This document shows, one piece after another, positions 14,377 through 40,890 of a DNA stretch of 64,000 nt. The position numbers and the translations under genes are program-made. The stretch is taken from positions 1-64,000 of the forward strand of contig WHVD01000196.1 in assembly GCA_015178975.1 (NCBI GenBank), in the 5' to 3' direction. The notes beneath the pieces are model-generated. The model saw only the letters and a program-made list of their open reading frames with translations. It made no database searches and had not been told where the DNA came from. The DNA is from Hysterangium stoloniferum (lineage: Eukaryota > Basidiomycota > Agaricomycetes > Hysterangiales > Hysterangiaceae). Within the stretch, counting starts at the first letter, position 1; each line of letters opens with the position of its first letter.

Positions 14377-16271
14377 ATGGCAAAACACTTATCTATAGCT
14401 AAAATTATGGAATACATGGGTCAGCAGCACCGAACGATCAAACGTATCTTGTCCATCTATAAGCACACTGGACAATTGTCCACTCCCCTAGCAGATGCAA
14501 AGGATGAAAGTCAATACTTGATGAAGGTGATCGAGAGGTGAGTGCTCACATAGATTTTCATATTATGATTACCTGATGTTCTTTTCTAGTTTCTGCTTGG
14601 TTCAATCGCAAAGGCATTGGACATTTACCTGGACAAGCTGAAGGAGAGCCTAGAAGATATGTGTGGGACTTCAGTATCACTATCAACTGTGTGGAGAGCA
14701 CTTCAGAAGTCAGGTTTCACTATGAAGAAGGTATGTGCTTTATTGTTTCTCATGTAGCTTATAAAGATTGCAAGAGAATGTAGTGCAAAGAAACATGCAG
14801 CCTACATGTATCACATGGGTAAGACATACCAACTTGTCTTTGTAGATGAGAGCTCATTTGACCGTTGGACAACTTATCGTGGGTATGGGTGGGCACTAAA
14901 GGGTCAGCGGGCTCTGCAGAAATGTTTTATTATGCGGGGAAGATGGTATGTCTCTTTTCTGTTTTTTACTTTAAACTACTAATGTAAATATAAGGTATTC
15001 TGTTCTTCCGGTCATCTCACATAGTGGCATGATATCTGTAAAAGTTGTTGAAGGATCTTTCAATATGGAGCTTTTCATGGAATTTATTGAGGGTCTTCTG
15101 GACCACATGCAGCCATACCCTGCCCGGAATTCAGTTATTGTGATGGACAACTGCAAGATTCACAAGGATCCTGTTAGGATACACACACAGGGCGGGTTTC
15201 CAGAGAAACCTGCGGGATATCTGGTAGGACTTGGCTTCAGCTTATAAGCTGCGCCCTCGCTAGATTGTGTTGTCCAATTTCAAACAGGTGGATGGGGATC
15301 CTGGGGAGTCTGGGCGGGGTTCGTGGGTCGTAGGTCGTAAGTCGGGGGTCGTGGGTCATAAGTCGGAGGTCGTGGGTTGTGAGTCGAGATAGTTGAGAGA
15401 GATAGATGCGCCGGAGCCTGTGAGCTCCGACTAGTGAAAGCGATGTGAATCAAGCAAGGGTTTAGAGCGGAAAATGTTATTAGATTACTGGGGGGAATCT
15501 AAGCTAATTTTCTGACTGGATTGTATGTACAACATCTGCCAGTTTATATAGACCATGGAGTGAATGACATACCAAATCCAGTAATGACAAAACGAAACTA
15601 ACAAAACATAAAACGGGAATAGTAAACACCAAATTGGTGTTAGGAACGGGACGGAACAGAGCAGAGTCTGAATCGTGACAAAGCATAACCCATAACGGGA
15701 AACGGAGCGGGAGTGGAGTCCTAAATTGTGACAGGTCATTTGACTAAAACAGGAATGGGGCTCGATTAGAGCAGTGACGGGATTCTGAGCGGGGTCCAGT
15801 GACTGATGCGTGGGACGAAGATGGACATAGACAGAGACGGAGTCCAGGGGAAGTCCGGTGACTGATATGTGTCGTAATGAGGTCGAATGTAACAAGTCTT
15901 GACGTAACAGAGTCCGGGCGGGAAATCCTATAAACAGACAATTGGTGCTTGTAGTGCGTGGGGGTGTACGGGTTAGTGCCCGGAGTCCAGTCGTAACAGA
16001 TCCAGCAATTATTGATCTAATTCATTCATGGTATTCTCTTAATCCTCTTTTATTTATACTACTAATTGGATTTTATACAGTGGAATGCAAATTGAATTTT
16101 TACCTCCTTATTCCCCCGACTACAACCCCATTGAGCTTGCATTTTCTGCTATCAAAGCACAAATTCGGCATTGATTCAGATGTATATGTGTGGTTGATAA
16201 GTGCAGTTTTTTCAATTACGGCAGATGATGCACATGCATTCTATGATAAATGTGAATATGTCCAAATGTAA
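14377..16271 (+). CDS. Tc1-type DD34E transposase (multi-exon, interrupted by a solo LTR)
   Basis: Cuts and joins the transposon ends. An N-terminal helix-turn-helix region ([20 protein letters not shown]) is followed by exons with the DDE_3 core: first Asp in VFVDESSFD (about 14836), [16 protein letters not shown], second Asp in [10 protein letters not shown] (about 15135-15165), and the third acid in [11 protein letters not shown] (about 16110-16140). About 34 residues separate the second Asp and the Glu, as in Tc1. Introns are predicted at about 14539-14589, 14732-14768, 14944-14993 and 16029-16080. LTR E (15172-15998) lies in the codons after the second Asp. The last exon carries a likely one-base frame change after KAQIRH (about 16172), so this copy is probably dead. 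The start is uncertain: ATG at 14377 is the first in frame, and an upstream exon is possible. Confidence 0.8.
15172..15998 (-). repeat. Solo LTR type E, copy 1 (827 bp), TSD GATCC
   Basis: Plus strand TGTTAGGATAC..GTCGTAACA flanked by GATCC (15167-15171 and 15999-16003). It is inserted in a transposase exon. It carries the block GGACTTGGCTTCAGCTTATA (15227-15246), also found in the Gy3 LTR. The strand is inferred from that match. Confidence 0.85.
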
Positions 16272-16302: not shown

Positions 16303-19300
16303 CTATTCATGGTGTGATTTATTGCGAAGAGGTTCCACTGAAAGTATGGTAGAGTCCTCTTTTGCCCATCTGATCAGTCAATTGGCTGTTCCTGCTGTGT
16401 GTCAGGGGACAATCTCAAGTTTTCTAAATTCATCCCTGACCTTCCTTAATATAGTCTCATAAGTCAAGGATAAGAGTACCTTGTTTTTATCACATTTTCA
16501 AACTCAGCTGCACCTTTAGTTAGTCACTCGCTAGCCGAGGGTTCCTTAGACTTTTCTCTTCGGATTCCCTCTGCTAGGTAAGTAATAATGTACATTGTAT
16601 GTATATAATAGATAGGTATAAAACTTACTTCGGATTCCCTCTGCTAGTGCCCCAACTCAGTCATAGTGCGAGTCAGTGTGATCTAGAGAGTTGCCCTTAC
16701 AGAAGAAAAGTCTCACATCGAGTGACCGGAGTCACCGCCGCTATTTTTCGAACCATATTCAAGATCGCAAATTCAAACCTTTATACAGATCTAATCTACT
16801 TCGAGTTTACACGCGGTCCCCTCCCCTCATTTTTACTATTATGTCGACTTCTATTACCGATCCCCACCAGGTGCTGGAACAGCACAGTAACGACATCAGA
16901 GATCTCCAAGCCTCCCAGAAGCAAAATACGGACCTGTTGCAGCAAATTCTTCAGCAACTCACTGTACAAACACAACCACCAACGAATCCTCCACAGCCGC
17001 CCGCGTTACCTACGTCGACCTCTACTGCCGTTTCGACCAACTCAGGCCCGAAGGTTCCACTTCCGAACGCGTACGACGGTGATCGATCTGGTGGACGCAC
17101 CTTCTACAACTCGTGTCTGCTGTACATCAGCATGAATGGGTCGAAGTTCCAGACGGACGAGACGAAGGTTCAATGGGTGGTGTCGTTCATGAAGACGGGT
17201 CGAGCCGCCCTTTTCGCAAATCGGCTCATGAAATCGTGGAGTCAAGGAGACGCGGTGCCGTCGTGGGAGACCTTCGTGCGGACCTTCGAGCGCGAGTTCT
17301 TTCCAGCTGATGAAGCAGCTACGGCCCGTATCAAGTTAGAAGGAACGACGTACCATCAAGCCCGAAGAACGGTCGACGAGTACACAGATGAGTTTCGCGA
17401 ACTCATTGACCTTGCAGGTTACAAAGACGCGTTAGCCATTGTGATGAAATATCGACACGGCCTCTTACCGCATATCCAGACCCAGGTTGCGACGATGGAG
17501 AACCGCCCGAAGGACGACGACGAACAAGGCTGGTACGACGCCGCTTCCCGCTTCGACCGAAATCGAAACGCAAACGAGATTTTCCGTTCAGCAGGCGTCA
17601 CAACGCGACCGGTCGCACTGAAACCTTTGACGTTCCCTCGCGTCGTTCCCCCACTTCCCCCACATTCCACGTCGACACTACCCTCCTCTAGGCCGACCGA
17701 CGCGATGGACGTTGATGCGACAAAAGGCCGGGGTCTTCCCTCAACACTCTGTTTCGAGTGTCGTCAGCCGGGTCATCTCAGTCGTGACTGCCCTCGAAAA
17801 CTACAAAGAATCCGCTCCCTACTTACTAGCCTTGATGAAGAGGGACAGGACATGGCCATGGACATCCTTCTTGCAGAAGCGGATGTCCAAATTGCCTGTA
17901 GTAGGGTGGCTGAAGCAGATGACTCTCCTCGAGGGGCTGACCTACAGCCTGCTTCGGGTTTTCCCAACTGCAGCGAGTGAAGGGTATGCCCTCGCTGCCA
18001 CTTTCAAATAGATTCAGTGTCCTCTCTGTTGATGATGTATGTACAGTTAATACATCAGAAGTTGAACCTCTGTTGAGTGAGGACACTGGAATTCAAGTCA
18101 TACCTAACCCACCCAAGTCTCCCTCAGTCCATTCACACCGTAGAAGACCAGTTTGGGAACGTCGTCTTCCAAAATCTCTCATTATTGCCTCAACGGCAAC
18201 TGCGAAATCATTACACCTAAAAGTCGAGCTCCAAACAACTGACACTGGTCTTCTCCGATCGACTCGTGCATTGGTTGATTGTGGTGCAACTGGTCTATTC
18301 ATTGACCGAGACTATGTGTATGAAAACAGAATTGCCACACGATCACTCATCTACCCAATTCATGTATACAATGTTGATGGGACACCCAATGAAGCAGGTT
18401 CAATCACTGAAGTTGCTGAGTTGGTCCTACGCTACAAGGATCACTCAGAAAAGGCATTGTTTGCAGTCACCAAGCTTGGGAAGGAATCCCTTTTACTTGG
18501 CTATACCTGGCTTCGGGATCACAACCCAGAGATCAATTGGCAGACACAAGAAGTCAAAATGACCCGTTGTAACCCACACTGTAAAGAGTGTAAAATCTCA
18601 ACCCTCAGGGCACGTGAAGAGATTAGATGTTTACAAGCTTGTAGAGATGCCCCTGCCCCAGTCTTCACATCTGAGGAAACAGAAGAGCCAATTCCTGACT
18701 TACTACCTGATCAGTCTGATGAGGTTGAAGACCAAATAGAGGACTTAATTGAAGATGGAGATCGGGTATTTGTCACGGAGCTGCACCCAGAATTGACTCC
18801 AAGTCAGATTCGAGCATCTGCCACAGTGTCTCAGCGACTAGCAGAGGCTAGTGCAAGGTTTAATACACCGAGCCCAAAAGGTTTTCGAGACATTGTCCCT
18901 GAGTATCTCCACACCTTTGAAGATGTGTTCTCCAAGGAGTCATTTAATTCATTGCCTGATAGAAAACCTTGGGACCATGCAATTGAACTAATCCCTGATG
19001 CAAAGTCAACCAATTGCAAGGTCTACCCTATGTCCCTCAATGAACAGACAGAGCTGGATATTTTTATTGCTGAAAACCTTGCAACTGGTCGAATACGTCC
19101 TTCTAAGTCACCCATGGCATCCCCAGTTTTCTTCATCAAGAAGAAGGATGGCTCCCTTCGACTTGTACAAGACTATCGTGCATTGAATGCCCAAACCATA
19201 AAAAATCGATATCCACTCCCACTTATTTCAGAACTGGTGAATCGATTAAAAGGGGCACGGTATTTCACAAAACTTGATGTCAGATGGGGCTACAACAATG

Positions 19301-22300: not shown

Positions 22301-25300
22301 CAATAGTAGTGGAAGGAGAAGTGGAGTATGAAGTTGAGAAGGTATTGGATAGTAGATGGAGATATGGGCGAATTGAATACCTCATAAAATGGCAAGGCTT
22401 TGGCATGGAACATAATAGCTGGGAACCAGGATATATGGTATTCGCTCCCACTCTGACAGCAGACTTCCACACACGACATCCAGAGGCAGTAACAACTCAG
22501 GGCCCTATTCGAGGATCAAGACAACCTCCAAACACCATAGTACGAGTGACCCAGATTCCAGAGTTTCGAAAGGTCAAGCCTGGACTTTATTGGCAGCAAC
22601 AGCATGTCGGGACGCCATATCTTAAAAGGGGGGGTGATGTCAGGGGACAATCTCAAGTTTTCTAAATTCATCCCTGACCTTCCTTAATATAGTCTCATAA
22701 GTCAAGGATAAGAGTACCTTGTTTTTATCACATTTTCAAACTCAGCTGCACCTTTAGTTAGTCACTCGCTAGCCGAGGGTTCCTTAGACTTTTCTCTTCG
22801 GATTCCCTCTGCTAGGTAAGTAATAATGTACATTGTATGTATATAATAGATAGGTATAAAACTTACTTCGGATTCCCTCTGCTAGTGCCCCAACTCAGTC
22901 ATAGTGCGAGTCAGTGTGATCTAGAGAGTTGCCCTTACACTGTGAGAGGTATGGCGAAATACACTCAGGAAATATAGTCGGATGAGCTCTTACTATATCT
23001 CCTTTATTATTTCTATTTTCTCTCTTTTATTACATCTATAATTAGTTTGACGACCTATGTATGCGGTACATCGACTCTTGTGGGCGCACACACAGACTTA
23101 TGTATTCTAGCGCCCGTAGTTTAGAACTCAGACACTTTTTACACTGCAACCACGACTTACTCAGACACCCGTTAGTGTCCTGTAAGTTGTGATTGGTGTA
23201 TCATCTCGACCGTCACAGACGGGCTTTAGCTACTCATTCAAACTGAGTTTCGAACTGTATCAGTCGAAACTCAATCCCTATCTCAACTCGCGTGGACTAC
23301 ATCCACGCTACTCTATTATTCGACTCTCTAACTACTCTACTTGCACTCGAGCAGTTGTCCAGAATTGCACTTAACCAGTCGACTCTGCTTATTCGTTCTA
23401 GCTATCTACCTTACTTTAGATAGCTACTTCTCTCTACCGTATTGAACTAAGTAGTCAATACGCGTTCGGTCTGTATTAGACTTAGACAGTCAATACATCG
23501 TGGTATCGTACTTCAACGGTCGATATTCTTCGTATATAGAACGGTTAGAACTTCTACCACTCTTCACACCTGCATTCATTCCATGCTGTTCAAATAAATC
23601 AAGCAAGTCTTTTCCTGACAAATCAGCGAGGTCATCCAATCAAAGAAACCCTTGTTCTATGAACAAGGGACAGAACTGACTATAATTTTGGTTGTCACAA
23701 CCACAAAGTGAATGCACATCCAGCCTACCCAGCCACTGTTCGAGAGTAGGATAATCAACTTCTGATGCCATTTTGTGAGACTCTGCTTTATAGACATTCT
23801 TTGGAGAGGCAGAGCCTGGATGCCCATGAAAATGGAGTGTACCTTCATTACCAACTCGAATAGGTGTATATGGTGTTGGTACAGCTACCTTTGGGAACTT
23901 GATTTCAGGCTGATTGAGGGCCATTGGTAATACAAAATCTTTAAGCTGCCGCATTTCTGCAAGTAATTTTTGAGTTTCAGTGACTGCGGAATTGTCATCT
24001 AGCTTTGCTTTGAGGTCATGAAGCTGGATATGAGGTGTTAAGTCCAATGATGTTGGTGGCTTGGTAATGGATACTTTGCCTTAGGACTTCTATATGTTAG
24101 TACAGAAAAATAGATGTCTTATGGATATTATACATACTGTTAGGATACGTACAGGGCGGGTCTCTGGAGAAACCCACGGGATATCCAGTAGGACTTGGCT
24201 TCAGCTTATAGGCTGTGCCCTCGCTAGATTGTGTTGTCCAATTTCAGACAGGTGGATGGGAATCCTGGGGAGTCTGGGTGGGGATTGTGGTCGAGAAGTC
24301 ATAGGTCGGAGGTCATGGGTTGAGAGGTCATGAGTGGTGAGAGAGATAGATGCGCCGGAGCCTGTGGGCTCCAACTAGTGTGAGCGGTGTAATTCAAGTA
24401 GGAGTTTAGAGCGGAAAATGTATTAGATTACTGGGGGGAATCTAAGCCAATTTTCTGACTGGATTGTATGTACAACATCTGCCAGTTTAAATAGACCGTG
24501 GAGTTAATGTCATACCAAATCCAGTAATGACAAAACGAAACTAACAAAACATAAAACGGGAATAGTAAACACCAAATTGGTGTTAGGAATGGGATGGAAT
24601 GGAGCGGAGTCCGAATAGTGACAAATCATAAACCATAACGGGAAATGGAGTGGAAGCAGAGTCCGAATCATGACAGGTCATTTGACTAAAACGGGAATGG
24701 GGCTCTGTTAGAGAGGTGACGGGTTTTCTGAACGGGGTCCGGTGACTGATGCGCAGGACGAGGTCGGATATAGACAGAGACGGAGTCTGGTGGGTTTTCC
24801 GGTGACTGAAACACAATGTAACAAAGATGAACGTAGACGAGTCTGACGTACGGAGTCCGGTGGGAATTCCAGTGAACTGATAACAGGTGCATATAAGTTC
24901 GTGCCCAGAGTCCGGCGGGATTTCTGGTCGTAACACATACCACAAGATTGGCCCAAATAGCTTTATCTGCCATTGTATAAACATAGTGATCCTGACTCTT
25001 AGGTAGTGTGAAGAGTGGTGGAAGTTCTAACCGTTCTATATACAAAGAATATCAACCGTTTAGGTACAACACGTAGTTGTATTGACTGTCTAAGTTCAAT
25101 ACATGCTGAACAAGTATTGACTATTTAGTTCAATATGTCTGGGTGAAGTAACTATCTAAGGTAGAGTAGATAGCTACAACGAAATAAAGGAATCGACTGT
25201 TAGGTGCGATTCCAAGTGACTGCTCGAGTGTAGAAAAGAGTAATGAGAGTCGAATGATAGAGTAGCGCAGATGTTGTCCACGCAGATTGAGATATAAATG

Positions 25301-28300
25301 GGGTTTCAACTGGTACAGTTCAAAACTAAGATTATGTAGATAGTTGAAGCCCATCTGTGACGGTCGAGATGATACCTCAATCACGACTTACAGAACACTA
25401 ACTGTGTGTCTGTTAAAACTGCCTCCACTGTCTCCAAGACCTTCTGGAACCTTCTAGAACCTTCTAGAAGCTTCCAGCATGTTCCAGAGTATTCCCAGTT
25501 CATTTCCCATGACAGCTGTCAATCAGCTGTCACTTTGTATTCCAGCTGTCAATCAGCTGTCAGTTTCCATTCAAGCTGTCAATCAGCTGTCACTTATGAC
25601 AGCTGTCAACCAGCTGTCAACCAGCTGTCACTTATGACAGCTGACAAGCCTACTGATGTATAACATATATAAGCTTGTAGTTAGTGACCTGAATAGGAAC
25701 AACTTTCCTCAGACTTGTGTGTGTCACGTGTCACAGTAAGTCACAGGTCACTTTAAACAGGTTATGGGCCCCGCGCTCTAAGCGCTCTAGTACAGTATAA
25801 CGTTTTGCAAACTCGCTTCTTTTGAGTAAGTTTCAGCCTATACTTTTATATTCCCCTGCCAGGCCCAGCCTTATTGCTGTTGCTAGTAGGGAGGAACTTG
25901 TACGCCACTAAGGCTGAGTTTCCCTCGAGACTACCGTCTGGACCTCGAGTTAAATACCTTTTTTCTGAACTTCTTTGCGAGTTTGCTCTGTGTATACTAC
26001 AATGTCATCTTCCATCCCCCAATTCCCTAAACTCAACTCTCATAACTACAACACCTGGTCTGGTGAGATGCAGGCTTGGCTTCGTGCCCAGGGTGTCTGG
26101 CTCATTGTTGAGGCCACCTCCATTGCACCTGCACTATCCTCATCTCCCACAGAGGCCCAGCAAACTGCATTTGATGCTTGGGCTCTCAAGTCAGACAAAG
26201 CAGCAGGTTGGATGTACTTGAGTGTTGAGGATGATCAAAAGATTCATCTTAAAGGGATTGAGGGTGATCCGGTCAAGATGTGGACCAGTCTGTGTGATGT
26301 ACACTTGCAGAAGCGCCCTGGCATGCGCTTCAATGCGTATGATGATCTCTTCTCCATCAGAAAGGAAGAGAATGAGAATTTGCAAACTCTGATGAATCGG
26401 GTGGATCTAGCCATCTGTGCCATCCAGGATCTGCGCCCATTGAATTTTGATCTTGCCAAACTTGATGAGGAACTTGCATCAATGTCAATGATCAGGGCAC
26501 TTCCTGAGCAGTTTGACAACTTTGCCTCTTCTCTCCTTCTGATGGACAAGCTGGACAAGGCTACTATCCAACAAGCTTTTGTCACAGAAGAGTCACAACG
26601 CCGTCATCGGGCTTCACAAGCTCCTGCAGTTGCATCTGCACTTACTGTAAAGGGCAATGCATCCACTGCATTTCTCAAATGTACTTTCTGCTCTATGACC
26701 AACCATACTATGGACAAGTGTCATCGCTTCATCAAGATGCAGCAGGAAGCACAGGAGAGTGTCCGTACCAATCGTACCAAAGGAAAGAAGGCAAACGGGA
26801 CTCAGGAGACAATGTCTCAGGACAATGTGGAATCTGCTGGAAATGCACGTCCTTCCTCCTCATCCGATTCCTCCACCCTGCAGAATGGTTCTGACTATGA
26901 TTGGCTTGCTGATACAGGTGCTAGTAGTCATATGACTCCTCATAGTCATTGGCTGCGTAACTACACAGCATTATGTGTCCCAATCAAGTTAGCAGATCAT
27001 ACTGTTATCTACTCTGCAGGAGTTGGTTCTGTGGTATTCAACCCAGTTATAAATGGAAGGAAATCGCGATCTGTGGAGCTTACAAGAGTTTTGCATGTAC
27101 CACAACTGCGTAGTAACCTATTGTCTTGTCTCTATCTCACAAGACACAAAGGACTACTCATACACATTGATCGAACAACCATGCATTTCAAACTCTCTGG
27201 CCAGACTTTGTTTACAGCCAGAGTTACTGCACAGAATGCAGGCATCCTAAATGGTGCCACTGCACCTATTATTGAGCAAGCTGGTGCTGCCTCCACTCTT
27301 CCCTTTGATATCAATCTCTGGCATCGCCGTCTTGGACATCACAGCTATGCTGATGTCCAGAAGATGATCAGAGAAGGATTGGTGGTTGGCTTAAACCTTG
27401 ACTCAAAGGAACAACCTGATCCTATCTGTGAACCTTGCCTTGCTGGCAAAATGACTGCCAATCCATTTCCTACCTCACCAAGTCAATCTCAGACACCACT
27501 TGAGCTTATTCATAGTGATCTACATGGACCACTTCCTGTGCAAACAACTGAGGGTTATCACTACTGGATAACCTTTATTGATGATTGCACCAAGTTGCGA
27601 GCTGTTCTGTTCTTGAAACGGAAGAGTGATGCATTTGAAGCATTCAGGAGATACAAAGCTTATGCTGAGAATCTTCTGGGTTGCAAGGTCAAAGCTCTGC
27701 AGGATGACAAAGGGGGGGAGTATATGTCAAATGCCTTTATCAAGTTTACAGATGAATGTGGAATAGCACGCCGTCATACTACTCGCAATCGCCCTCAACA
27801 GAATGGAGTTGCAGAACGAGCCAATCGTACCTTGGCTGATCATGTCACTGCCATGATGCATGAAGCGCGTATGCCTGCCTCATTCTGGAATCATGCTGTG
27901 GCATCTTATGTCTATGTATGGAATCGTCTGCCTACTGCACCATTGCCTAAAACTACACCCTATGAGCAATGGTACAAGCAGAAACCAGATGTGAGCAACT
28001 TGCGAGTGTGGGGGTGTACTGCCTATGTTTACATTCAAAAGGACAAAAGGAAGTCACTTCAGTCACACATGGAGAAATGCCTCTTTCTAGGCTATCCTGT
28101 GGGATACAAAGGTTGGCAATTCTACAACCCTGTTACAAAGAAGTTTATCATCTCTGAACGGGCTGTATTTGATGAACGCCACTTTCCTGGTCTATCTACT
28201 ACTGGACCAATGCCTAATATTAGGCTTTTCCCAAATATACCAAACTCTGACATTCCTTTATTTGTGCCAGAAGTAGAGGGGGATAATGATATTTCTGTCC

Positions 28301-31300: not shown

Positions 31301-34300
31301 CATATGGAATTTCAAATCGGATCTCGAATATGTTTTTAACTTGTCCAGCAGACACCATATTCTCACCATCATTTTCAACTTCATTATATTCTTGGCTGTA
31401 GTCACTTGTGTCCTTAAATATATCACTACTACCTTGTATATTTAAGAACTATTAGCTGAAATATCAAAAATCTAGTAAATTATAAAAAAATACCTTCAGC
31501 CAAATAATCTTCTCTAAGATCTCCTGTGATTGTGTTGTTCTTGTGATAGCCATGGGTATGAGTTATAAATAAATAAAAGTATAAGAGTGGAGTAGGAGAT
31601 ATTAGATTACTTACTATGAAGAGTGGTAGAAGTTCAGACTGTTCTATATACAAAGAAATGAGTAGAATGGGAAGAAGGATGAGGCCTCAACTGCTATAGT
31701 TCGAGGCCTGAAGTGTTAGATAGCTCAGATAATGCTACCTATGTGGTAGCTGACACATTACCCTGATCACTGCTCGCTGTAGACCTAGTTTATATCTTAC
31801 AAGTGGTGGTGCTTGGGTAAAAGTGTGTCTGAGTTTCATTTGGTGCCGAGTGCACCCACAAGTATACACAATGCTTTGAACTAATGAAATGATGCAATAT
31901 TCAAAGAATATAAAAGATAGAAAAATATGAATAGAATGTGTAAAATATAAATAAAATAAAAGGAGTGTTTTACCACAATGAAACTGTGGTAAAAGCATAC
32001 TCCTCACACTTACTAGTAGTACCAGATACTGCCCAAAAACCTGCCTCCTGTTTTTTGTTATGTATATATAGCAGAAGAACCCTTTTTCATCTCCAAAAGG
32101 ACATTTGCAACATGCATCTCATCTATCTCAGGGTCATTCTGTTGATTTTGCAAGTTTTTTGTGGCAGCATCCTTGAAAATTGGCCGTAGTTTAGGATGCC
32201 GATTTTGAGGAGCTGCCAGTGCAGGTGTTAAGAACTGAAAACTGACTAATGTCGGTGGCCGACAGGGACCGATCGGAAGGACTTGGCTTCAGCTTATGTG
32301 CTGTGCCCTCGCAAATATCCGTAGGGTGTCCTTACATTTTGGGCAGGTGAAGACTAATCCTAATGAGTACCTTTCAGCGTGATACCGATCGGAATTGAAG
32401 GACAAGTCGAGCATCAGGCCAAGGGGTCGGGGCCGGGAGTGGGCGAGCGCACGCGAAGGCGGAAGGGGGGATTCTTAGTATGAGACTGATACAGGCGTAT
32501 GAGGGTATTCTGAGTCGATATTCTGATTGCCTAGTGACTACAACTACAGCGGGTTCATATACAAGTAACAGGTGTCTGGAAAATACTAATGGGGAGAAGG
32601 GCAGAACATGGTATTAACAATAAGCTTGACTAGGAACAGGAAGTTTATGATTAGTTTGGAGGCCGATGATAACCGAGAGTGGGATTACGATAAAAGGAAA
32701 TAGTTCAAGGACTACAAATATAGATAGACATATGCGAAGCATAAGATTGAACGGATCAACATATGTAATAAAGGGGACGTATCAAAGTTTGACCAGACAA
32801 TATGAGTTATTTTGACGTGGGCGTAAACGGAGTTTGATCTTCGCGAAAACATTTGTCAGCTTCAGGGCCGATGGTTTCCGAGATGGTGACTTGAAACGTT
32901 GACAAGTGGTGATAACCTCGGGACCGATAGGGTTGCGACACGGTCGTAACAGTATCTCCCCTTTTGGCCGAAATCCCAAGGAGGCCGAAAATCTAGATCC
33001 CGTATGTAAAACTTGTCGGGTACGGCTGGGTGTGTCAAAACATCATGTGACTCGGCAAAATTTTGCATATAAAAGTTTGAGGGTTCCTGGCACTTGAAAT
33101 TTTACTTCCCTTCCTTTAACCACCATGACCATAGGCTCGGGGTCAAAACCCTTCCCGGTTAGGTTAACAGTTGCGCCCATGTCGGTGCCGAGTGGTATGG
33201 CGAACGCGAAGGAGCGTCGGCGTATACTCGAGCAGAAGAAAAAGGCACGTGAAGAGGAGGAGCGGAAGGAGAAGGAGGAGTTGGCGGCCATCGAGGCCGA
33301 GGAGAAAAACAGGCAGCAGAAGAGGCCGTGCGCAAGCACTGGGAAGCAGTGCTTGCAAAGAACAAGCAGCAGGAGGCCGATCGGGCACGGGAGGAGGCGG
33401 CGAAAAAGAAGCGGGAGGGAAAGGTAAGTCGGCTCTGGTTTCTTTTGCGAACCTTACTGACAATATTTGTTAGTGCAAGGCTGCAACGCCTTCGGAGTCC
33501 GATGACGAAGAGGAAGAGGAGGACGAGGAGGATGCACTGGGGCCGTCGAATCCCAAGGTGGGTTTGATTTCCTTAAATAAAACTTCCCTAAATAATTTTT
33601 CCTATAGAAACAAAAGCAGGCCCCCAAGGCGGGGCCCGAAAATGACCCCAAGTGCAATCGGTGCACGAAACGGGGTCGAACTTGTCATCCCCGGACCAAT
33701 GGTCGGGGCCGCACTTGTCAAGAGTGCGCCGATCAGAAGCTTAGGTGTGTTTTCCCGGGGGCCGATGGTTCGTTCCAGGAGCGACAGGCCGATGCTCTAG
33801 AAGAGCAAAACCGCCTTATGTGGACCTACTTCTCGGAGATGAGTCGGTTCCGATATGAGACGTTGCGATAACAAGGGCTCATAACTGAGCAATTGCGACT
33901 CTTGGGCGTCGGGCTGGAGAAACAGACCAGTGTTATTGAGTCTCTCGGTGGTCAACTTGAGCAGTATTTGGAAGTCTCGAGTTGCGATGGGCATGAAATT
34001 GGGGTTTCGGAGAAGGTCGGTGGTGTGGTATCAGTGGCTGTCGGTGCGGAGGAGGGTTCGGAGGCTGGGGAGGAGGGAGAAGTTGTAGAGGGAGAAACTT
34101 AGATAATGAAAATATATCGGTTTTTCTTTAAAACAAACAAATCATAGTGTGAAAACATAAGGCATAGTCGGAAAAAGGTCGGGTACCGCGTGATAGACTT
34201 ATAAAGAATTGAGAGGACCGGGTTTGTTTGGATAAGCTTGGTGAAACCCTAAAACGATTTCCGAGGCATTACCGAGCTCTGTAGCTAGGATCCATGAAGT

Positions 34301-37300
34301 TTCTTCATCTGTACCTTCATAGCCAGCCCATTTGACCAAATAAAGTAATTTGCATGAGTGTCGGCGATTGTCGATTTTTGAGTCTAGGATCTTTGATATC
34401 TCGAATTCGGGTTCCCCATCAATAATCACGGGTGGAGGTGGTGGTTGTATGCAATCGGGTATACTGTTAGGAACACAAGGTTCTAACATAGATACATGAA
34501 ATACCGGGTGCACTGCACGCATGTTGTCGGGGAGCCAAAGCGTCCATGAAAGTGTGCCGGCTTGTGCTATAACTTCAAACGGACCTAAATATTTTTCAGA
34601 GAGCTTCTTAGAAGGTCTAGTAGTTCGGAAAAACTCGGCTTTAACGAATACTCAATCTCCGATCTTGAAATCAGGAGGCGGAAGTCGGTTTTTATCTGCA
34701 GACCGTTGGTATCGTTCTTGGGCCATTGCAATAGTTTTACGAAGTTCTTGATGTAGCTCGTCAAGGTTGGTAACGAAGTCTTGAGCACGGGTGGATGCGA
34801 GATTGCATTCCGGGTGGATTGTGATGTTGGGGTTGTAGCCTTTATTTGCAAAGAAAGGTGAAATGCCGGTAGTGGCATTTGGTGCATTGTTATATGTGAA
34901 TTCGGCTAGCGGTAGTAGTGATTTCCAATTGTCTTGTTGATAGTTGCAATAGACACGGATGTATTGTTCCAAGGTTTGATTCATGCGTTCGGTTTGTCCA
35001 TCGCCTTCCGGGTGATAGCCTGAAGTGAAATGTAGCTTCATGTCTAGTGCTTTTCCGAGTGACCTAAAGAAGTGAGAAACAAACTCGGATCCGTGATCGG
35101 ATGTGACATGCGACGGAACGCCATGCTTGGAGAATACATGGGTGACGAATAATTCAGCTAACTGTTATCGTGTCATATGTTGGAATGAAAATACTTTGCT
35201 TTGAGAGCCGATCCACAACAACTAGGATTGCTGTGTGACCTTTGGATGCCGGTAGGTGCTCGATAAAATCCATAGAAATCGAGTTCCAAGGTTTTTCCGG
35301 TATCGGTAATTGTTTGAGTAGGCCATATGGTTTGTGTCACTGTGATTTAGAGCGTAAACACGTAGTACAGGATTTACAATAGTGCTTAACAAAATCTCGG
35401 ATGCCGGGCCATGTATATTCTCTTCTAATGAGTGAGAGGGTCTTATTGAGGCCGAAATGTCCTGAGATTGGGTGGTCGTGCTTATGTTGTAGGATTCGCA
35501 GCCGAAGGGTGTCGGAATCCGGTACATAAATGCGATTGTCAAGTCTAATGAAACCTTGTGAGTCTAATGACCATCGGGATTGATCGGGGTCGGACGGGTT
35601 ATCGAGGTGTGCTTTGGTGACTGGGTCTAATGGAATTGCCGATAGTATATCTTGATGTAACTTTTCGGTATCCATAAGGATAACACTTCGCAAGACTGGA
35701 TGAATGAGGTAAGTGGCTCGGATAGACGCGGACAGTTGTTCCAATGAAAACATAGGCTTGAAATTATGCAGGTTAACTGTGGCGTAGTCGCTACTCCCCT
35801 CTTTAGGATAGACGTCCCATTGTCTAGTCATAGCGTCGGGTTTTCCACCAAGGTGGCCGGGGCGGAAACGAATTACCATGTTGAAAGCAGAGAGGTATTC
35901 GGACCATCGAGCTTGTCGACGGGTGAGAAGTTTTGTGGTTGAAAAGTAAACTAAATTTTTGTGGTCTGTAATAACATCTACCGGGTGGGCTGAGCCTTCC
36001 AAATAATGTCGCCATGTCTTGAAAGCTTCAAATATTGCGAGTAGTTCCTTATCATGAATGTCATAGTTGAGTTCGGGTGCCAAGAATGTGCAAGACAGAA
36101 AAGCTACTGGGTGTACTTCACCATCGGTGTCCAGAATGGACAATATCGCGGCAAGCGCATAGTCCGAAGCATCAGTTTCCACGATGAGTTGAATGTCGGG
36201 CTTCCAGTGCAACAAAATAGGGGCGGATGTAAATGCATTTTTCAATTCCTGGAATGCCGATCGGCATTCTTCGGAGAAATTCCACGGGGCATCTTTACGA
36301 GTAAGACGGGTGAGCGGGACAGTAATTTTTGAGTAGTTGTGAATGAAACGACGATAAAAATTGGTGAAGCCTAGAAAGGATTGAATATCCTTAACCTTCC
36401 GGGGTTCTGGCCAATCTTGAATGACTTGAATTTTAGAGTCATCCATGCGGAGACCGTCAGGTCCCATCATAAACCCTAAATATTCAACTGTGTCGACATC
36501 AAAAGAACATTTTTTACCATTCGCAAAAAGACCATGTTTTCGGAGTCTTCGGAGAACTTCACGAACGTGTCCGTCATGAAGTGTAGGATCTTCAGAGAAT
36601 ATGAGGATGTCGTCTAAATACACAATGACAAAGACATCGAGGAGGTCGGAAAAGACGTCGAAACGTTGAAAGACCAACGGAGTGTTGGTGAGGCCGAAAG
36701 GCATTACTAACCATTCAAAGGAGCCATAGCGAGTGCGAAAAGCCATTTTCCATTCGTCGCCTTCGGCGATCTGAACCAAATGATAGGCATGCTTGAGATC
36801 TATCTTTGTATAGATTTGGGCCTTCCGAGGGGCATCAAGTAAATCGGAGATTAATGGTAATGGGTACTTGTCTTTTCAAGTGATCGCATTTAGTCCTCGA
36901 AAATCAACGCAAAGTCGAAGGGAACCGTCTTTTTTCCGAACGAATAGGATGGGGGCTCCATAAGGAGACTTTGAGGGTCGGATAAAACCTATAGCCAAAT
37001 GTTCGTCCAAGAAATCTCGGATAGCCGATAATTCGGACTGCAAGAGAGGATAAACCGGGCCTAGGGGCGGATGTGAACCATCTTCAATATCAATTTTCAA
37101 ATCGTAAGGCCTGTGAGGGGCGAGTCGATTGGCTTTTTGTTTACTGAAGACATCTGCAAATTCATGGTATTTTTTGGGAACACCTTCCAAATCTGCGATT
37201 GGTTCGGTCACCGGGGATGCAAAGCGACCGGTGACTTCGTCAACTTTAAGATTGACTGTAAATGCTTGGGAGCCGTCCAACTTGATGGCTCTCATAAAAG

Positions 37301-40300
37301 CTGCGGCATTTATTAGAGAGACGGGCAGCGGAGAGCTCGGATTTGCCACGGGGGCCGGAGGTGCTGTAGAGGCCATATTTGCCGAGACAGGCAGAAACGG
37401 ACCAGTCGTAACGGGCACCGACCGGGTTCGGAAATGGATACTGCCCAATACCCAATCAATCAATGGATTGTAGCGGGTGAGCCAGTTATGTCCTAGAACC
37501 ACGGAGCAGCTCGGGTCCAACTGTGTTACAAAAAACATAACTGTCTGAAAGGTTCCACATGGGAACCGAAGTTGGAGTTCGCAGGCTTGCGAGATTACGG
37601 AGTTTGAGGTACCATCAAAGAGTCGGAGCGGAATTGGATCTATTGCGTAGGTTTTTAACTGATTTTTTCTGGAAAAACTTGTATCTATAAAACAATGGGT
37701 TGAACCTGAATCTATGAGAGCTCAAAATGTGAGGGTCCCGAGAGGTTCCGAAGTAAGATTTATGAACAAGGAATTAGGATCATACAAGGTGGATGCGTTA
37801 AGGTGACTGTAAAGGGTATGCATATATGCATACCTGGACTAAGGAATAATAACCGGATTATAGTACTTTATTATTTACCTTTTATTTTCTTTCTTTATAT
37901 TCTTTCTATATTTCGAGCACACCTTGATTTGTAGTTCGAAGCTTTGTGTATACGGGCGCCCTCGGCGCCAAACGATAGACAACTTTTACCCAGCAGACAC
38001 CACTTCGTAACGACTCAGACGTCGAATAACGAGAGGTGTCAAGGGTAGTATCTCAGCTACCATAAAGGTAGCATTCTCTAGTCTACTAATAGCCTTTTGA
38101 GCTCGAACCACTAAGGTCGAGTTCCGCTTTCAAGACTTTGCGCTCGTCGACACCGTAGTCGACTCACGCTACTAATACTCTATCCTAGACACTCAGTCTT
38201 TAGCTGAGTATCTTTCTTATTTCTAGCTACTAGTTGTACCGTAAAAGGTCAACTCGTTATCTTACTGTTCTAAGCCGTCACGAGCAACTATACAGTTGCT
38301 CTTGAGGCGTGCAGTGCATTCTTATACTAGTACTAACAGTCTAGTAGTCTATAGTATTGTACTGACGGTCAATACTCTCTAATAGTAGTTGAATAAACAC
38401 TATTCTTCGTATATAGAGCGGTCAGAACCCACCACTCTTCACAGTGACAATTTTCCGGTGTGCGAGGAGATTCAATGCAACCCTCCAAACGCACGGAATC
38501 CAGAGAGTTGCTTAATCTTTTTTCGACTCGACAGCCGGCTTGGCCGGTTGTGAGGTCGTGGCCGTATTAGCCGATCGGGCTTTTGTGGCTTTTGGGCAAG
38601 CAGCGACTCGGTGTCCGGGATCTGCGCACAACAAACAAAGGTTGTTGTCCATTCGGCATTGCTTTTCCTGTGGTAGGAGCTTGCCATCGGAGCCGAGTTT
38701 GCCAGTTAAGTCGGGTTTGTCTTTGTCTTGAGACTTATTGACTGTTTTCCCTTGCCTTTTTTGTCGTTAGCCCCTTTGTTTTCAGACTTCGTATTGGAGG
38801 TCGAGTTGCCATTGTTGTTGGTGTTTTGATTACCAGACTTGTTGGCGTTCTTATTGTCCGATGATTTTTTGTCCGAGGGGTTTTCGCAACTAATTTCCAA
38901 ACGTCATTCCCAGTATCGGGCATCTGTGTTTTGGGCTTTCAGATGCATGAGAGAGAGGGTCTTCGGCTTGCCGGTCTCTCCTTTGGAGACTTCATCTTTG
39001 AGGCGAGACGGAAGGCCGGAGTAAAACTGGTAACGGAGGGCCAAATCACCCCAGTCGCAACGCACGGCGAGGTTGTTGAACTGGATGATGTAATCGGTGA
39101 TGCGCTGAGTGTCTTTCATTTTGAGATTAGAAAGCGCGGTTTTGGCATCGCCGGTTTGGTCGTAGGGACCAAAGTTAGTTTCGAGTTCCTCGACAAAGGC
39201 ATCCCAATCGTGAAGCCAATCGGGGTCTTCGGAGGTGAGGCCAGAGAATGCGGGTTCAAACCAGGCTGCTGCGGAATCCTTAAGGTATGAGAGTGCGAAG
39301 TTTACCTTTCGGTCATCCATTGCGAATGCAGCTGGGCGGTCCCGAAAGTTGAATCGACATTGCATAAGAAATGTCGGCAATTTCTTCGGGTTTGAGCCAG
39401 TGAATGGCTCGGGTTTGTTGACTCGGGTTTGCCCAGGTTCCTTTTCCGTGATATTGCTTTTAAGGAATTCGTTAAGGGATCCTAGAGTACCTGAAAACAA
39501 TTCCCATGTTTCTTCAGGGTCGAGAGCCAGTTTCTTTTTTGCAGACTTCTTGGAGCCACTAGCCTGAGGTTGGTCGCCATCCTCGGGTTCATGTTCCGAA
39601 ACTGGTTGATTGTTAATCTCCTCAGTTGCTTCAGGATCGGTTGCTTCAGTTACTTCTTCAGCATCGCCGGTAATCTCCACAAAGCGAGATTCTTCAGAGG
39701 TTTCTGGTAGCGGAGTTCTCTGAGTAGCTCGGGCTGTATACAGAAAAGGAGACTTGAGAGTGGAAGATTCTGCTTCCCCGCTAGGCTTGGCATTTCTTCT
39801 CGGAGGCATGATTAACGGAAAATGCGAGTGTGAAATCAGAATATACTGTTAAGAACTGAAAACTGACTAATGTCGGTGGCCGACAGGGACCGATCGGAAG
39901 GACTTGGCTTCAGCTTATGTGCTGCGCCCTTGCAAATATCCGTAGGGTGTCCTTAAATTTCGGGCGGGCGAAGACTAATCCTAATGAGTACCTTTCGGCG
40001 TGATACCGATCGGAATCGAAGGACAAGTCGAGTGTCAGGCCAAGGGGTCGGGGCCGGGAGTGGGCAAGCGCACACGAAGGCGGAAGGGGGGATTCTTAGT
40101 ATGAGACTGATACAGGCGTATGAGGGTATTCTGAGTCGATATTCTGATTGCCTAGTGACTACAACTACAGCAGGTTCATATACAAGTAACAGGTGTCTGG
40201 AAAATACTAATGGGGAGAAGGGCGGAACACGGTATTAACAATAAGCTTGACTAGGAACGGGAAGTTTATGATTAGTTCGGAGGCCGATGATAACCGAGAG

Positions 40301-40890
40301 CGGGATTACGATAAAAGGAAATAGTTCAAGGACTACAAATATAGATAGACATATGTGAAGCATAAGATTGAACGGATCAACATAATAAAGGGGATGTATC
40401 AAAGTTTGACCAGACAATACAAGTTATTTTGATGTGGGCGTAAACGGAGTTTGATCTTCACAAAAACATTCGTCAGCTTTGGGGCCGATGGTTTCCGAGA
40501 TGGTGACTTGAAATGTTGACAAGTGGTGATAACCTCAGGACCGATAGGGTTGCGACACGGTCGTAACAGCAGGGATGGATGGTTCAGTGACACAGGTGGT
40601 GGCTATGAATTGGCCTCTGGAACCTCTGATAGTCTTTCTAATGCCTCCCATGATTGTAATTGGATGCAGTTTCCAAAGAACCACTGCCTATACACTGATG
40701 AAAAATGTAGAGTGCCTATCCCAAAAAGAAATTGCTTTAGAGGCTAAAACACAAATATCTATAGCAAATCCCTCCATAAGAATCTTTATATGTATAATGA
40801 AATCACTCTGGTATATTCTCACAAAAAATTGACCATTAAATACCATATAAAAGGAGTCTTATAACACTTACTCATTAGGTTGTAATGCAT
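16303..40890 (-). CDS. Accessory protein of the Tc1-like transposon, with CxxC and SAM-like domain (split by insertions)
   Basis: Function unknown. Minus-strand exons lie at about 40651-40574, 32225-32050, 31560-31490, 31440-31010, 30950-30803, 25006-24941, 24090-23574 and 16395-16303. Each missing piece between them is an LTR insertion or a predicted intron. Visible parts: [17 protein letters not shown] near the N-terminus; a conserved block [39 protein letters not shown] then [16 protein letters not shown]; a metal-site-like [10 protein letters not shown]; and a C-terminal helical domain ([20 protein letters not shown], then [11 protein letters not shown]) resembling a SAM domain. This copy has in-frame stops near 31134 and 23640. 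From memory, similar hypothetical proteins recur in Agaricomycete genomes. The start is unresolved (ATG at 40890 or 40651). It ends 32 bp from the convergent transposase stop. Confidence 0.6.
16400..16701 (+). repeat. 5' LTR of Gy2
   Basis: TGTCAGGGG..CCCTTACA, 302 bp. It has an internal 20-bp direct repeat (16558-16577 and 16628-16647) around a GTAAGT-like splice donor at about 16577. Confidence 0.9.
16841..17980 (+). CDS. Gag of Gy2
   Basis: 379 residues. The N-terminal coiled-coil stretch ([19 protein letters not shown]) is followed by a Ty3-type capsid region ([19 protein letters not shown] to [19 protein letters not shown]) and a CCHC knuckle [14 protein letters not shown] near residues 303-316. 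It forms the virus-like particle and binds element RNA. The frame is open further upstream into the LTR; ATG 16841 was chosen because it lies after the LTR and begins the compact Gag. Pol begins about 6 bases after the Gag stop in another frame. Confidence 0.85.
   Translation: MSTSITDPHQVLEQHSNDIRDLQASQKQNTDLLQQILQQLTVQTQPPTNPPQPPALPTSTSTAVSTNSGPKVPLPNAYDGDRSGGRTFYNSCLLYISMNGSKFQTDETKVQWVVSFMKTGRAALFANRLMKSWSQGDAVPSWETFVRTFEREFFPADEAATARIKLEGTTYHQARRTVDEYTDEFRELIDLAGYKDALAIVMKYRHGLLPHIQTQVATMENRPKDDDEQGWYDAASRFDRNRNANEIFRSAGVTTRPVALKPLTFPRVVPPLPPHSTSTLPSSRPTDAMDVDATKGRGLPSTLCFECRQPGHLSRDCPRKLQRIRSLLTSLDEEGQDMAMDILLAEADVQIACSRVAEADDSPRGADLQPASGFPNCSE
17986..20228 (+). CDS. Pol of Gy2, first part (protease, RT, RNase H)
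   Basis: Aspartic protease with [14 protein letters not shown] (about 18280), RT from about 19050 with [12 protein letters not shown] and the catalytic box YLDDILIF (about 19465-19490), then RNase H with [16 protein letters not shown] and [10 protein letters not shown]. The reading frame is cut at 20228 by the Copia-derived insertion flanked by CCAGG. The host element is a fossil because of this insertion. Confidence 0.88.
20229..20883 (-). mobile_element. 655-bp Copia-derived insertion with two different LTRs, TSD CCAGG
   Basis: Minus strand: a Cop2-type LTR (20883 down to 20546, begins TGTTAAAACTGCC), a primer site GGTTATGGGCCCC, about 65 bp of internal DNA ending in a purine tract CAGGGGAAG, then LTR type X (20479 down to 20229). 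Perfect 5-bp duplications CCAGG lie at 20224-20228 and 20884-20888. No coding capacity. It integrated as one unit although its ends belong to two Copia families. Confidence 0.85.
20251..20325 (-). tRNA. tRNA-like sequence in the second LTR X copy
   Basis: Same cloverleaf-like element as at 8484-8558, with intact A and B boxes and one base difference near the anticodon arm. The anticodon loop is again too long. Not counted as a working host tRNA. Confidence 0.6.
20884..22665 (+). CDS. Pol of Gy2, second part (integrase, chromodomain)
   Basis: The integrase zinc-binding region (H and C residues around [13 protein letters not shown]) is followed by the DDE core with [23 protein letters not shown] and [16 protein letters not shown], a GPF-like segment ([20 protein letters not shown]), and a C-terminal chromodomain [26 protein letters not shown] (about 22326-22430). 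Chromodomains of this type steer integration to heterochromatin in other fungi, which fits the crowded nest here. The stop at 22663-22665 lies 25 bases inside the 3' LTR. Confidence 0.88.
   Translation, partial: PGRSMGKTDALSRRSDHGSGEGDNSNITLLKPEFFAIRAMEGVSIHGPEREFLTAIRQGNEKGEQEEAVIKAVKELRKSGGRSIRLMEWSEEDGLVLYRGKIYVPTDPELRRRIVEQHHDSRVAGHAGRWKTLELVSRNFWWPGLSRYIGQYVKTCDTCIRTKFQRRMPIGELHPNTTPADRWDTTSVDFIVDLPESQGYDSVMVIVDLMTKRGHFLPTHKTVDSVGAARIFFKDVWKHHGLPQRIISDRGSQFASHFTRELYRLLGIQPAYSTAYHPQTDGQTERVNQELETYLRIFVNQRQSDWVDLLPLAEFQYNNHIHASTQQTPFMLDCGRHPRMGFEPNLRSSKVESANDFRDRMAETLEEAKAALAKAKDEMTKYYNRRRTPAPNFKAGDQVFLDASDIQMAQPSKKLSHLRLGPFKILEQVSPIAYRLELPKSMNRLHPVFNVVKLTPKIEDPIIGRHSQPPPDPIVVEGEVEYEVEKVLDSRWRYGRIEYLIKWQGFGMEHNSWEPGYMVFAPTLTADFHTRHPEAVTTQGPIRGSRQPPNTIVRVTQIPEFRKVKPGLYWQQQHVGTPYLKRGGDVRGQSQVF
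22638..22939 (+). repeat. 3' LTR of Gy2
   Basis: Same sequence as 16400-16701 by eye, followed by CTGTG. Confidence 0.9.
24138..24935 (-). repeat. Solo LTR type E, copy 2 (798 bp), TSD CATAC
   Basis: TGTTAGGATACG..GTCGTAACA flanked by CATAC (24133-24137 and 24936-24940). It lies in a predicted intron of the accessory gene. Conserved block at about 24190-24223. Confidence 0.85.
25411..25759 (+). repeat. 5' LTR of Cop2
   Basis: TGTTAAAACTGCC..CTTTAAACA. It contains the heat-shock-element-like array, nine CAGCTG boxes (25511-25643) and a TATATAA box near 25666. Confidence 0.92.
25442..25496 (+). promoter_or_regulatory. Heat-shock-element-like array in the Cop2 LTR
   Basis: In exact 5-base steps the sequence reads TTCTG GAACC TTCTA GAACC, then TTCTA GAAGC TTCCA GCATG, then TTCCA GAGTA TTCCC. 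The first seven units alternate TTC and GAA without a miss, and nine of eleven fit. This is the binding pattern of trimeric heat shock factor. It lies about 170-220 bp upstream of the TATATAA box. Repeated in the 3' LTR from 30247 and in the chimeric insertion at about 20799-20852. Confidence 0.75.
26002..30114 (+). CDS. Cop2 Gag-Pol polyprotein
   Basis: 1,370 residues in one frame. Order: UBN2-type Gag (residues about 1-220), CCHC knuckle [15 protein letters not shown] (about 230-245), protease [14 protein letters not shown] (about 305-318), GAG-pre-integrase [11 protein letters not shown] (about 439), integrase with [15 protein letters not shown] and [12 protein letters not shown], a Pro-rich linker, RT with [14 protein letters not shown] and the catalytic box YIDDITFAS, and RNase H with TYTDAAHGD and [10 protein letters not shown], ending near the 3' LTR. 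ATG 26002 opens the usual Copia Gag start ([16 protein letters not shown]). It copies and integrates the element. Length and domain order are typical of complete Copia elements. Confidence 0.92.
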   Translation: MSSSIPQFPKLNSHNYNTWSGEMQAWLRAQGVWLIVEATSIAPALSSSPTEAQQTAFDAWALKSDKAAGWMYLSVEDDQKIHLKGIEGDPVKMWTSLCDVHLQKRPGMRFNAYDDLFSIRKEENENLQTLMNRVDLAICAIQDLRPLNFDLAKLDEELASMSMIRALPEQFDNFASSLLLMDKLDKATIQQAFVTEESQRRHRASQAPAVASALTVKGNASTAFLKCTFCSMTNHTMDKCHRFIKMQQEAQESVRTNRTKGKKANGTQETMSQDNVESAGNARPSSSSDSSTLQNGSDYDWLADTGASSHMTPHSHWLRNYTALCVPIKLADHTVIYSAGVGSVVFNPVINGRKSRSVELTRVLHVPQLRSNLLSCLYLTRHKGLLIHIDRTTMHFKLSGQTLFTARVTAQNAGILNGATAPIIEQAGAASTLPFDINLWHRRLGHHSYADVQKMIREGLVVGLNLDSKEQPDPICEPCLAGKMTANPFPTSPSQSQTPLELIHSDLHGPLPVQTTEGYHYWITFIDDCTKLRAVLFLKRKSDAFEAFRRYKAYAENLLGCKVKALQDDKGGEYMSNAFIKFTDECGIARRHTTRNRPQQNGVAERANRTLADHVTAMMHEARMPASFWNHAVASYVYVWNRLPTAPLPKTTPYEQWYKQKPDVSNLRVWGCTAYVYIQKDKRKSLQSHMEKCLFLGYPVGYKGWQFYNPVTKKFIISERAVFDERHFPGLSTTGPMPNIRLFPNIPNSDIPLFVPEVEGDNDISVPPTHIPAPPAYIPAPPVQIPAPPALPEPIQLPPPPAPEPQLRRSQRVPKQPGEWWKVQPAPALAEDDDEDIDYEEVQFVGTASTADPQNYKQAMKGDDADKWQKAINAEYNTLVENKTWELVDLPVGAKAIGSGWVFKVKHNADGTIERYKARLVAKGYSQRPGIDYNEVFAPTFRPATLRLILALAAIEDMDLRSVDISAAFTHGDLDETIYMRQPEGFHQGGPNKVLRLLKSLYGLKQGSRQWNIKLHGALTEMEFKRIESDTSVYIYSNGEVKIFVPIYIDDITFASKSTLAIDKAVKQLSLHFKCRDLGPTVYLLGVGVGRDRSKRLLTLDQRQFILNMLERYNMSDCHPVLTPMTPGTSLSKEMGPENAAEVDFMRSVPYLSAVGSLQYLATMTRPDIAYTVSYLARFNCNPGPKHWTAVKHLFRYLKGTLDYKLHYSGKCGSELFTTYTDAAHGDCIDSGRSTGGYVTMMAGGAIGWSSKLQSIVTLSTTEAEFVSAVEAGKEIAWMRQILGEFGYQVDQPSTLHIDNQSAISVAKNPEHHGRMKHLDLRYYWLRDAVNAKCIAPSYIPTAEQIADILTKPLSTPKVQFCRDGMGIRT
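30216..30564 (+). repeat. 3' LTR of Cop2
   Basis: Same as 25411-25759 by eye, followed by GTGTC and the remainder of LTR F. Confidence 0.92.
31615..32008 (-). repeat. Solo LTR type G (394 bp), TSD CTTAC
   Basis: Minus strand TGTGAGGAGTATG..CTCTTCATA flanked by CTTAC (31610-31614 and 32009-32013). It includes a hairpin AGGCCTC..GAGGCCT at 31682-31709. Resembles LTR F and Gy1 in overall plan. It lies next to a predicted splice site of the accessory gene. Confidence 0.8.
32226..32951 (-). repeat. 3' LTR of Gy3
   Basis: Plus strand TGTTAAGAACTG..GTCGTAACA. It shares the GGACTTGGCTTCAGCTTAT block (32279-32297) with LTR E. Confidence 0.88.
33125..34102 (+). pseudogene. Extra antisense gene of Gy3: acidic/basic coiled coil plus cysteine-rich cluster
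   Basis: Lies between the Pol end and the 3' LTR of Gy3, on the strand opposite to Gag-Pol. Pieces in order: a highly charged Lys/Glu/Arg coiled-coil stretch (about 33203-33420), an acidic tract (about 33495-33540), a Cys cluster [25 protein letters not shown] (about 33655-33750) spaced somewhat like a fungal zinc cluster, and a C-terminal Gly/Glu-rich tail. GT..AG introns are suggested near 33424-33473 and 33558-33608. From memory, antisense genes with such a cluster accompany Gypsy elements in other Agaricomycetes. The copy looks broken (a few breaks). Role unknown; DNA or chromatin binding is a guess. Confidence 0.6.
34199..37800 (-). pseudogene. Pol of Gy3 (protease, RT, RNase H, integrase, chromodomain), broken
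   Basis: Minus-strand parts: protease-like region about 37800-37480 (SGSTHCFID, then [17 protein letters not shown]), RT about 37000-36500 with [20 protein letters not shown] and [12 protein letters not shown] (about 36625), RNase H with [15 protein letters not shown], integrase about 35540-34650 with [16 protein letters not shown], and a chromodomain [19 protein letters not shown] (about 34290-34410). Split over several frames, so this is a fossil with a handful of breaks. Confidence 0.85.
37808..38443 (+). repeat. Solo Gy1 LTR inside Gy3, TSD GTGAC
   Basis: TGTAAAGGG..CTCTTCACA, 636 bp, flanked by GTGAC (37803-37807 and 38444-38448). The fourth Gy1 LTR in the window. It shows that Gy1 was active after Gy3 inserted. 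Confidence 0.88.
38540..39809 (-). pseudogene. Gag of Gy3
   Basis: Starts at ATG 39809 ([14 protein letters not shown]), just inside the 5' LTR. Acidic N-terminus, then a retrotransposon Gag region ([17 protein letters not shown] to [19 protein letters not shown]), and a CCHC-type knuckle ([14 protein letters not shown]) near 38600-38650. The C-terminal part is disturbed, so it is treated as a fossil. Confidence 0.8.
39847..40568 (-). repeat. 5' LTR of Gy3
   Basis: Partner of 32226-32951 with a few differences, bordered by GCAGG on the outside. Confidence 0.88.

Follow-up and report, generated by a model that had tools for sequence, protein, structure and literature searches.

A decayed two-gene transposon of the IS630-Tc1-mariner group in Hysterangium stoloniferum, with a convergent gene for a putative transposase partner

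Known relatives and the present element

Tc1/mariner-type elements are the usual example of a one-protein transposon, which is the reason for their use as tools. Fungal single-gene Tc1-mariner elements share terminal inverted repeats (TIRs) and TA duplications with the element described here but carry one gene only, as opposed to two; a Verticillium element is termed a 'single intronless ORF' in an excerpt of its description (PMC3441728), while introns are found in the transposase of Sclerotinia Tc1-mariner elements too, according to a portion of that report (PMC4188875). Multi-gene mariners are already known, since elements with Fanzor1, GIY-YIG or methyltransferase genes and TA duplications are described in an excerpt of PMC3627910, and an earlier sequence-only reading of the present DNA, in which Tc1/mariner elements were said normally to carry one gene, is too narrow on this point. 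In contrast to those mariners, the accessory protein studied here has no Fanzor, nuclease or methyltransferase match, and one accessory gene family is common to several diverged element families.

PIF/Harbinger elements encode a transposase and a Myb-like protein, the second of which is reported in part of PMC9179366 to evolve faster, with congruent phylogenies of the two. The present element resembles them in having two element-encoded proteins, the second evolving faster, and the co-divergence reported below may be compared with theirs. It differs in its transposase family, in the lack of a Harbinger transposase or Myb/SANT Pfam match in either protein, and in its TA duplication, whereas the Harbinger target-site duplication is 3 bp. 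The IS630 family (ITm) shares with it the DDE_3 domain, the DD34E signature, TIRs and TA duplication; here, however, there are also a second, convergent gene, predicted introns in both genes and, at 30 of the 34 ends read, a T in front of the TA (the remaining four being shifted or degraded, and the 34 including a few duplicates of one insertion, C16 with C547 and C219 with C246). In the literature searched, with Repbase outside the search, no recognised description of a two-gene IS630/Tc1/mariner lineage with this gene was found, and the new part seems to be the persistence of a single accessory family in several families of one transposase lineage that have diverged from each other; 'lineage' here denotes the transposases matched by two transposase queries and is not set by a tree.

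A decayed copy in the window

The window, a stretch of 64,000 nucleotides (contig WHVD01000196.1, positions 1 to 64,000, assembly GCA_015178975.1), contains a single dead copy, 27.2 kb long, of a 3.91 kb DNA transposon, at 13911-41080. The terminal 19-mer TTGCTCTTTGCATAATTCA occurs exactly twice in the window, in inverted orientation, at 13911-13929 (+) and 41062-41080 (-), with 0 occurrences expected in shuffles, and the two terminal arms match at 89% across 137 bp. Alignment of an uninterrupted copy to the window resolved the 27,170 bases between the ends into seven pieces and six inserts (approximate coordinates below), three of which contain long elements with direct terminal repeats. The copy is dead, with these inserts and with four stop codons in the accessory frame and two in the transposase. 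The DDE_3 transposase lies on the plus strand (14293-16265), and the accessory gene on the minus strand, its stop codon starting at 16303 and its ATG at 40651. Because the accessory gene is fragmented across 24 kb, the interval proposed from the sequence alone (16303-40890) was very wide; its start falls exactly on the accessory stop codon and its end lies upstream of the accessory ATG, but the transposase and both TIRs were left out. All exon coordinates below are projections of the exon model of the uninterrupted copy C1 onto the window.

13909..13910, no strand: TA target-site duplication, left; a T precedes (TTA)
13911..14044, plus: left terminal inverted repeat, by arm match and 19-mer
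14293..14537, plus: transposase exon 1, N-terminal HTH region
14590..14730, plus: transposase exon 2
14758..14945, plus: transposase exon 3, first catalytic D
14995..15171, plus: transposase exon 4, first part, second catalytic D
15172..15998: insert in transposase exon 4, about 0.83 kb, LTR-like by eye
16004..16030, plus: transposase exon 4, remainder after the insert
16081..16265, plus: transposase exon 5, catalytic E
16303..16390, minus: accessory exon 5, 3' end and stop codon
16391..23568, no strand: insert in accessory exon 5, with 300-nt identical direct repeats at 16400 and 22638 and Ty3-like frames; an additional piece beyond the repeat-bounded element reaches 23568
23569..24089, minus: accessory exon 5, main part, C-terminal helical domain
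24138..24934, no strand: insert, sequence-related to the insert at 15172
24941..25000, minus: accessory exon 4, 3' part
25010..30796, no strand: insert, with 300-nt identical direct repeats at 25408 and 30213 and a 1381-codon frame
30797..30945, minus: accessory exon 4, 5' part, CxxC motif (HACNKC)
30993..31432, minus: accessory exon 3, conserved block, one internal TAG
31494..31562, minus: accessory exon 2
31617..32007, no strand: insert of about 0.39 kb, from the alignment of the uninterrupted copy
32016..32220, minus: accessory exon 1, 3' part
32226..40568, no strand: insert in accessory exon 1, with direct repeats at 32226 and 39847 (96%)
40569..40651, minus: accessory exon 1, 5' part and start codon
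40947..41080, minus: right terminal inverted repeat, by arm match and 19-mer
41081..41082, no strand: TA target-site duplication, right; an A follows

Uninterrupted copies, mobility and target site

The window's own genome (111 Mb, 554 contigs) was searched with the two arms as queries, and two uninterrupted copies of about 3.91 kb were recovered, C1:959657-963573 and C69:34000-37914. Both carry the two genes within the same TIRs, the first 60 bp of which show 0 mismatches in C1 and 2 in C69, and here the arrangement proposed from the sequence alone, a second multi-exon gene tail to tail with the transposase inside the same inverted repeats, could be seen directly, the two stop codons being separated by 37 bases. 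Searches with joined flanks revealed an uninterrupted counterpart for six of 13 insertions (C1, C2, C133, C160, C212, and C356), each with a single TTAA at the junction, indicating past movement of the element, with TTAA as its target and TA as the duplicated part. In a second, diverged family (C388), the element is 4509 bp long and has 532-bp TIRs that are 98% identical, TA flanks and both genes inside. TIRs of the C146 family were not found within 7.3 kb.

In addition, seven short derivatives of 735-741 bp, consisting of the ends only, were identified on C35, C133, C160, C212, C507, C514, and C530, with nearly the same internal junction in all seven (L013-L019, L025-L029, L034, and L038). 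They are probably a MITE-like family moved by this transposon.

Structure and class of the transposase

GT..AG splicing of the C1 and C69 copies yielded a transposase of 336 aa in five predicted exons, the introns of both genes being predicted from splice sites and open frames. One stop codon interrupts the transposase in each of the two copies, and C1 additionally has a two-base insertion. The DDE_3 profile PF13358 matched the protein (E 1.7e-28), and the catalytic spacing is 34 in two families, in agreement with the DD34E signature read earlier from the sequence. The IS630 model NF033545 gave 155 bits for the C69 transposase (cut-off 100, E 2.9e-45), although the library behind it consists of prokaryotic families, so that a score above its cut-off leaves IS630, Tc1 and mariner undistinguished. 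Of two transposase fragments, one from C388 (142 aa) reached 72.5, under the cut-off, and one from another DDE_3 locus of the genome (L007, 183 aa) reached 60.3. For HTH_Tnp_Tc3_2, the transposase scored under the cut-off.

The DDE_3 domain with DD34E spacing and the TIRs flanked by a TA duplication place the element in the IS630-Tc1-mariner group, while its two genes between the TIRs depart from the single gene of Tc1/mariner elements in the narrow sense. The Tc1/mariner label of the sequence-only reading is too narrow or at best tentative: the transposase passes the IS630 cut-off, and the accessory gene accompanied none of 139 other DDE_3 matches (see below).

The accessory gene and its protein

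The accessory gene lies on the strand opposite to the transposase and encodes, in five predicted exons, a protein of 540 aa, larger than the transposase as had been noticed. Its frame is open throughout in both uninterrupted copies. The conserved block and the CNKC motif noted earlier are present, the former in exon 3 of the window's accessory gene and the latter, as HACNKC, in exon 4. Alignment of five families revealed a CxxC..C..H..W motif, in which the three cysteines are invariant and represent the best-conserved feature of the protein, whereas the histidine and tryptophan occur in four of the five. The CxxC..C part was located upstream of the helical domain at C388, C146, C68, and the C1:3310137 locus, which together with the window's own family make up the five, and was not found at C335. 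In its upstream part, the accessory protein reads KGRGRPRS at C388 (L088/L005) and TKGRPHK at C146 (L089), which we take to resemble AT-hook motifs, and the accessory protein of the window family has a basic N-terminus with no GRP.

Searches of Pfam and NCBIfam placed no family of known function above its cut-off in the accessory protein and returned no OrfB/zinc-ribbon nuclease profile (Fanzor/TnpB); no convincing match was obtained among solved structures (PDB sequences) or PHROGs, and no relatives were confirmed in the genome_contigs and viral_contigs collections. The C-terminal SAM-like domain of the sequence-only reading was not upheld as a firm label, since SAM_2 reached only 14.2 bits (E 0.052, cut-off 20.5), and did so only with the C-terminus excised; neither the full protein nor the C-terminal exons from four further loci gave a SAM match. 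The NusA C-terminal repeat of NCBIfam gave 19.1 bits (E 0.001) against a cut-off of 48.15. Structure predictions were poor (pLDDT 48 and 35), and a structure search with one predicted model gave no match. It is plausible that the C-terminus forms a helical SAM-like or helix-hairpin-helix-like domain. Repeated subterminal words that might serve as binding sites of the accessory protein were sought, and none was convincing.

Pairing of the two genes across the genome

Within the window's family, accessory exon 3 was detected at 11 loci, all 11 with terminal-arm DNA within 9 kb, which includes the TIR region at nine of them and only the inner part of the arm at C513 and C22. The family's transposase (at least 67% identity) was found at six loci, each with a convergent accessory gene. 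Among the eight best DDE_3 loci of the genome, seven (all except L007) have a convergent open frame with a helical domain of similar kind at its end.

A wider search with five accessory exon queries from four families (two queries coming from the window's family) yielded 59 merged loci, and two transposase queries, each limited to 150 scored candidates (out of 447 and 547), yielded at least 78. A convergent transposase of the same lineage lay within 5 kb of 48 of the 59 accessory loci, among the transposase matches listed, with a median gap of 174.5 bp between the paired matches, compared with a chance expectation of 0.44 loci for pairing within 5 kb in any orientation. With the window family (11 loci) and the seven loci from which the idea had come excluded, 35 of 41 were convergent. 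A host gene adjoining a transposon by chance was rejected on the figures of 48 and 0.44, and no clear solitary host gene was seen among the 59 loci, of which the unpaired C514, C92 and C112 were read. The sequence-only reading had held that homologues that were single-copy and never near DDE_3 genes would speak against it; the pairing shows another pattern in this genome.

Outside the convergent set, one accessory locus had another orientation and ten had no transposase within 5 kb among the matches listed. Five of these ten belong to the window family and have its arms. No transposase was found in 4.6 and 4.5 kb near the accessory matches of C514 and C92 or in 2.1 kb near that of C112, all three of which are partial, and the accessory matches of C47 and C90 are weak (E 0.048 and 0.25).

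As a control, the best 150 of 1664 DDE_3 candidates were examined, and an accessory match within 5 kb accompanied 10 of the 11 that belong to the lineage but 0 of the 139 others (Fisher p 9e-15), all accessory queries being from this lineage, so that a very different accessory gene elsewhere would be missed. An accessory gene common to all DDE_3 elements was rejected on this result (0 of 139 among the best 150 of 1664 scored).

For 30 of the at least 78 transposase loci, no accessory gene was detected. Such copies were observed at C101:997344-998053 (L093) and on C75, C339, C373, C383, C408, C488, and C495, several of which lie on short contigs or next to where a contig ends; at C101, itself at a contig end, 1.6 kb on the convergent side showed no accessory gene. 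This group may be a derivative that lost the accessory gene.

Co-divergence, selection and the possible role of the accessory protein

Identity to C388 was compared between the two genes at 29 of the 30 loci matched by the C388 accessory gene (C514, without a transposase, was left out), and the accessory and transposase values were correlated (Spearman 0.89 over the 29 loci and 0.79 over the 23 outside the C388 family), the identities being those of single exon matches, with a few loci resting on one transposase exon. The accessory gene diverged faster, with 30-47% identity to C388 where transposase exons share 49-83%. Because any gene locked in an element diverges with that element, this co-divergence is a sign of long co-residence and not by itself of cooperation. 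For the least damaged copies (C1 or C69 versus C2), dN/dS was 0.35-0.45 for the accessory gene and 0.27-0.36 for the transposase, while other pairs were near, at or above 1 and the value of 4.3 for C1 versus C69 comes from one synonymous change. A mutation-placing test gave p values of 0.017-0.57 for the accessory gene in ten comparisons and of 0.017-0.80 over both genes, so that purifying selection on the accessory gene is no more than hinted at by these sequence comparisons.

With moderate confidence, the window is interpreted as holding a decayed two-gene transposon of the IS630-Tc1-mariner group, the convergent gene of which encodes a dedicated partner of the transposase. Cutting and joining are the task of the transposase, which, with its HTH and DDE_3 (DD34E) domains, would cut at the TIRs, insert at TTAA and duplicate TA. 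The CxxC..C..H..W motif of the accessory protein probably binds zinc and its C-terminal helical domain probably mediates protein contact; by analogy with the Myb-like protein of PIF/Harbinger, it may help the transposase to bind the ends, to assemble or to enter the nucleus. A DNA- or transposase-binding partner is the most likely role, because the pairing is confined to one lineage, the convergent position is fixed, the gene was absent from the other DDE_3 matches of the control, and the Cys/His/Trp motif is conserved. The stable end-to-end pairing in dozens of diverged relatives in the same genome suggests that the two proteins work together. More tentatively, a whole lineage of IS630-like transposons of eukaryotes may depend on such a pair as an obligate two-protein machine, in which the transposase is joined by a co-evolving partner with a zinc motif, the latter representing a new protein family.

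The main rival, which we regard as less likely, is that the element encodes the accessory protein as a regulator or anti-silencing factor, which would sustain transposon expression and take no part in the transposition reaction, a role for which the VANC proteins of plant VANDAL elements are a precedent. The co-localisation and co-divergence also fit a regulator, the putative zinc motif is compatible with it, and its faster change relative to the transposase would be expected of a protein tracking changing element DNA or host defence; fast evolution is, however, equally reported for the Harbinger Myb-like partner in the excerpt of PMC9179366.

That the accessory gene is a passenger, captured without a role in transposition, appears improbable. 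In C1 and C69 the accessory frame has stayed open despite a stop codon in the transposase, no known domain ties it to transposition, and the transposase loci without a detected accessory gene are also in line with a dispensable gene; of such a gene, however, one would hardly expect that families with only 30-36% of accessory residues in common have it at one position and in one orientation, and the lack of a clear solitary host gene among the accessory loci likewise argues against it. An unrelated gene or second element inserted by chance beside the transposase, which the heavy nesting of the window might suggest, has a negligible probability, being refuted by the two uninterrupted copies with both genes between near-identical TIRs, by the empty counterparts of C1 and by a pairing far above chance.

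If the reading of an obligate two-protein machine is right, it would be an independent invention of a strategy of the PIF/Harbinger type, and many mushroom genes annotated as 'hypothetical proteins' would encode partners of this kind. That a second gene has been retained over such deep divergence points to one of two things, transposases that depend on assistance or an element that has to act against its host. For annotation, a gene which carries the CxxC..C..H..W motif and is convergent with a DDE_3 neighbour in a genome of this kind is likely to belong to a transposon and not to the host.

Other repeats in the window

Another repeat-rich stretch, left of the element, includes an 847-nt inverted repeat (4709-5555 and 7500-8346, 96% complementary). 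Moreover, ARAGORN identified a tRNA-like sequence at 8484-8558 and at 20251-20325 (-), which sits in a 252-bp repeat (8462 and 20229) whose copies are 99% identical and the second of which breaks a Ty3-like frame. This repeat is probably a tRNA-derived short interspersed element.
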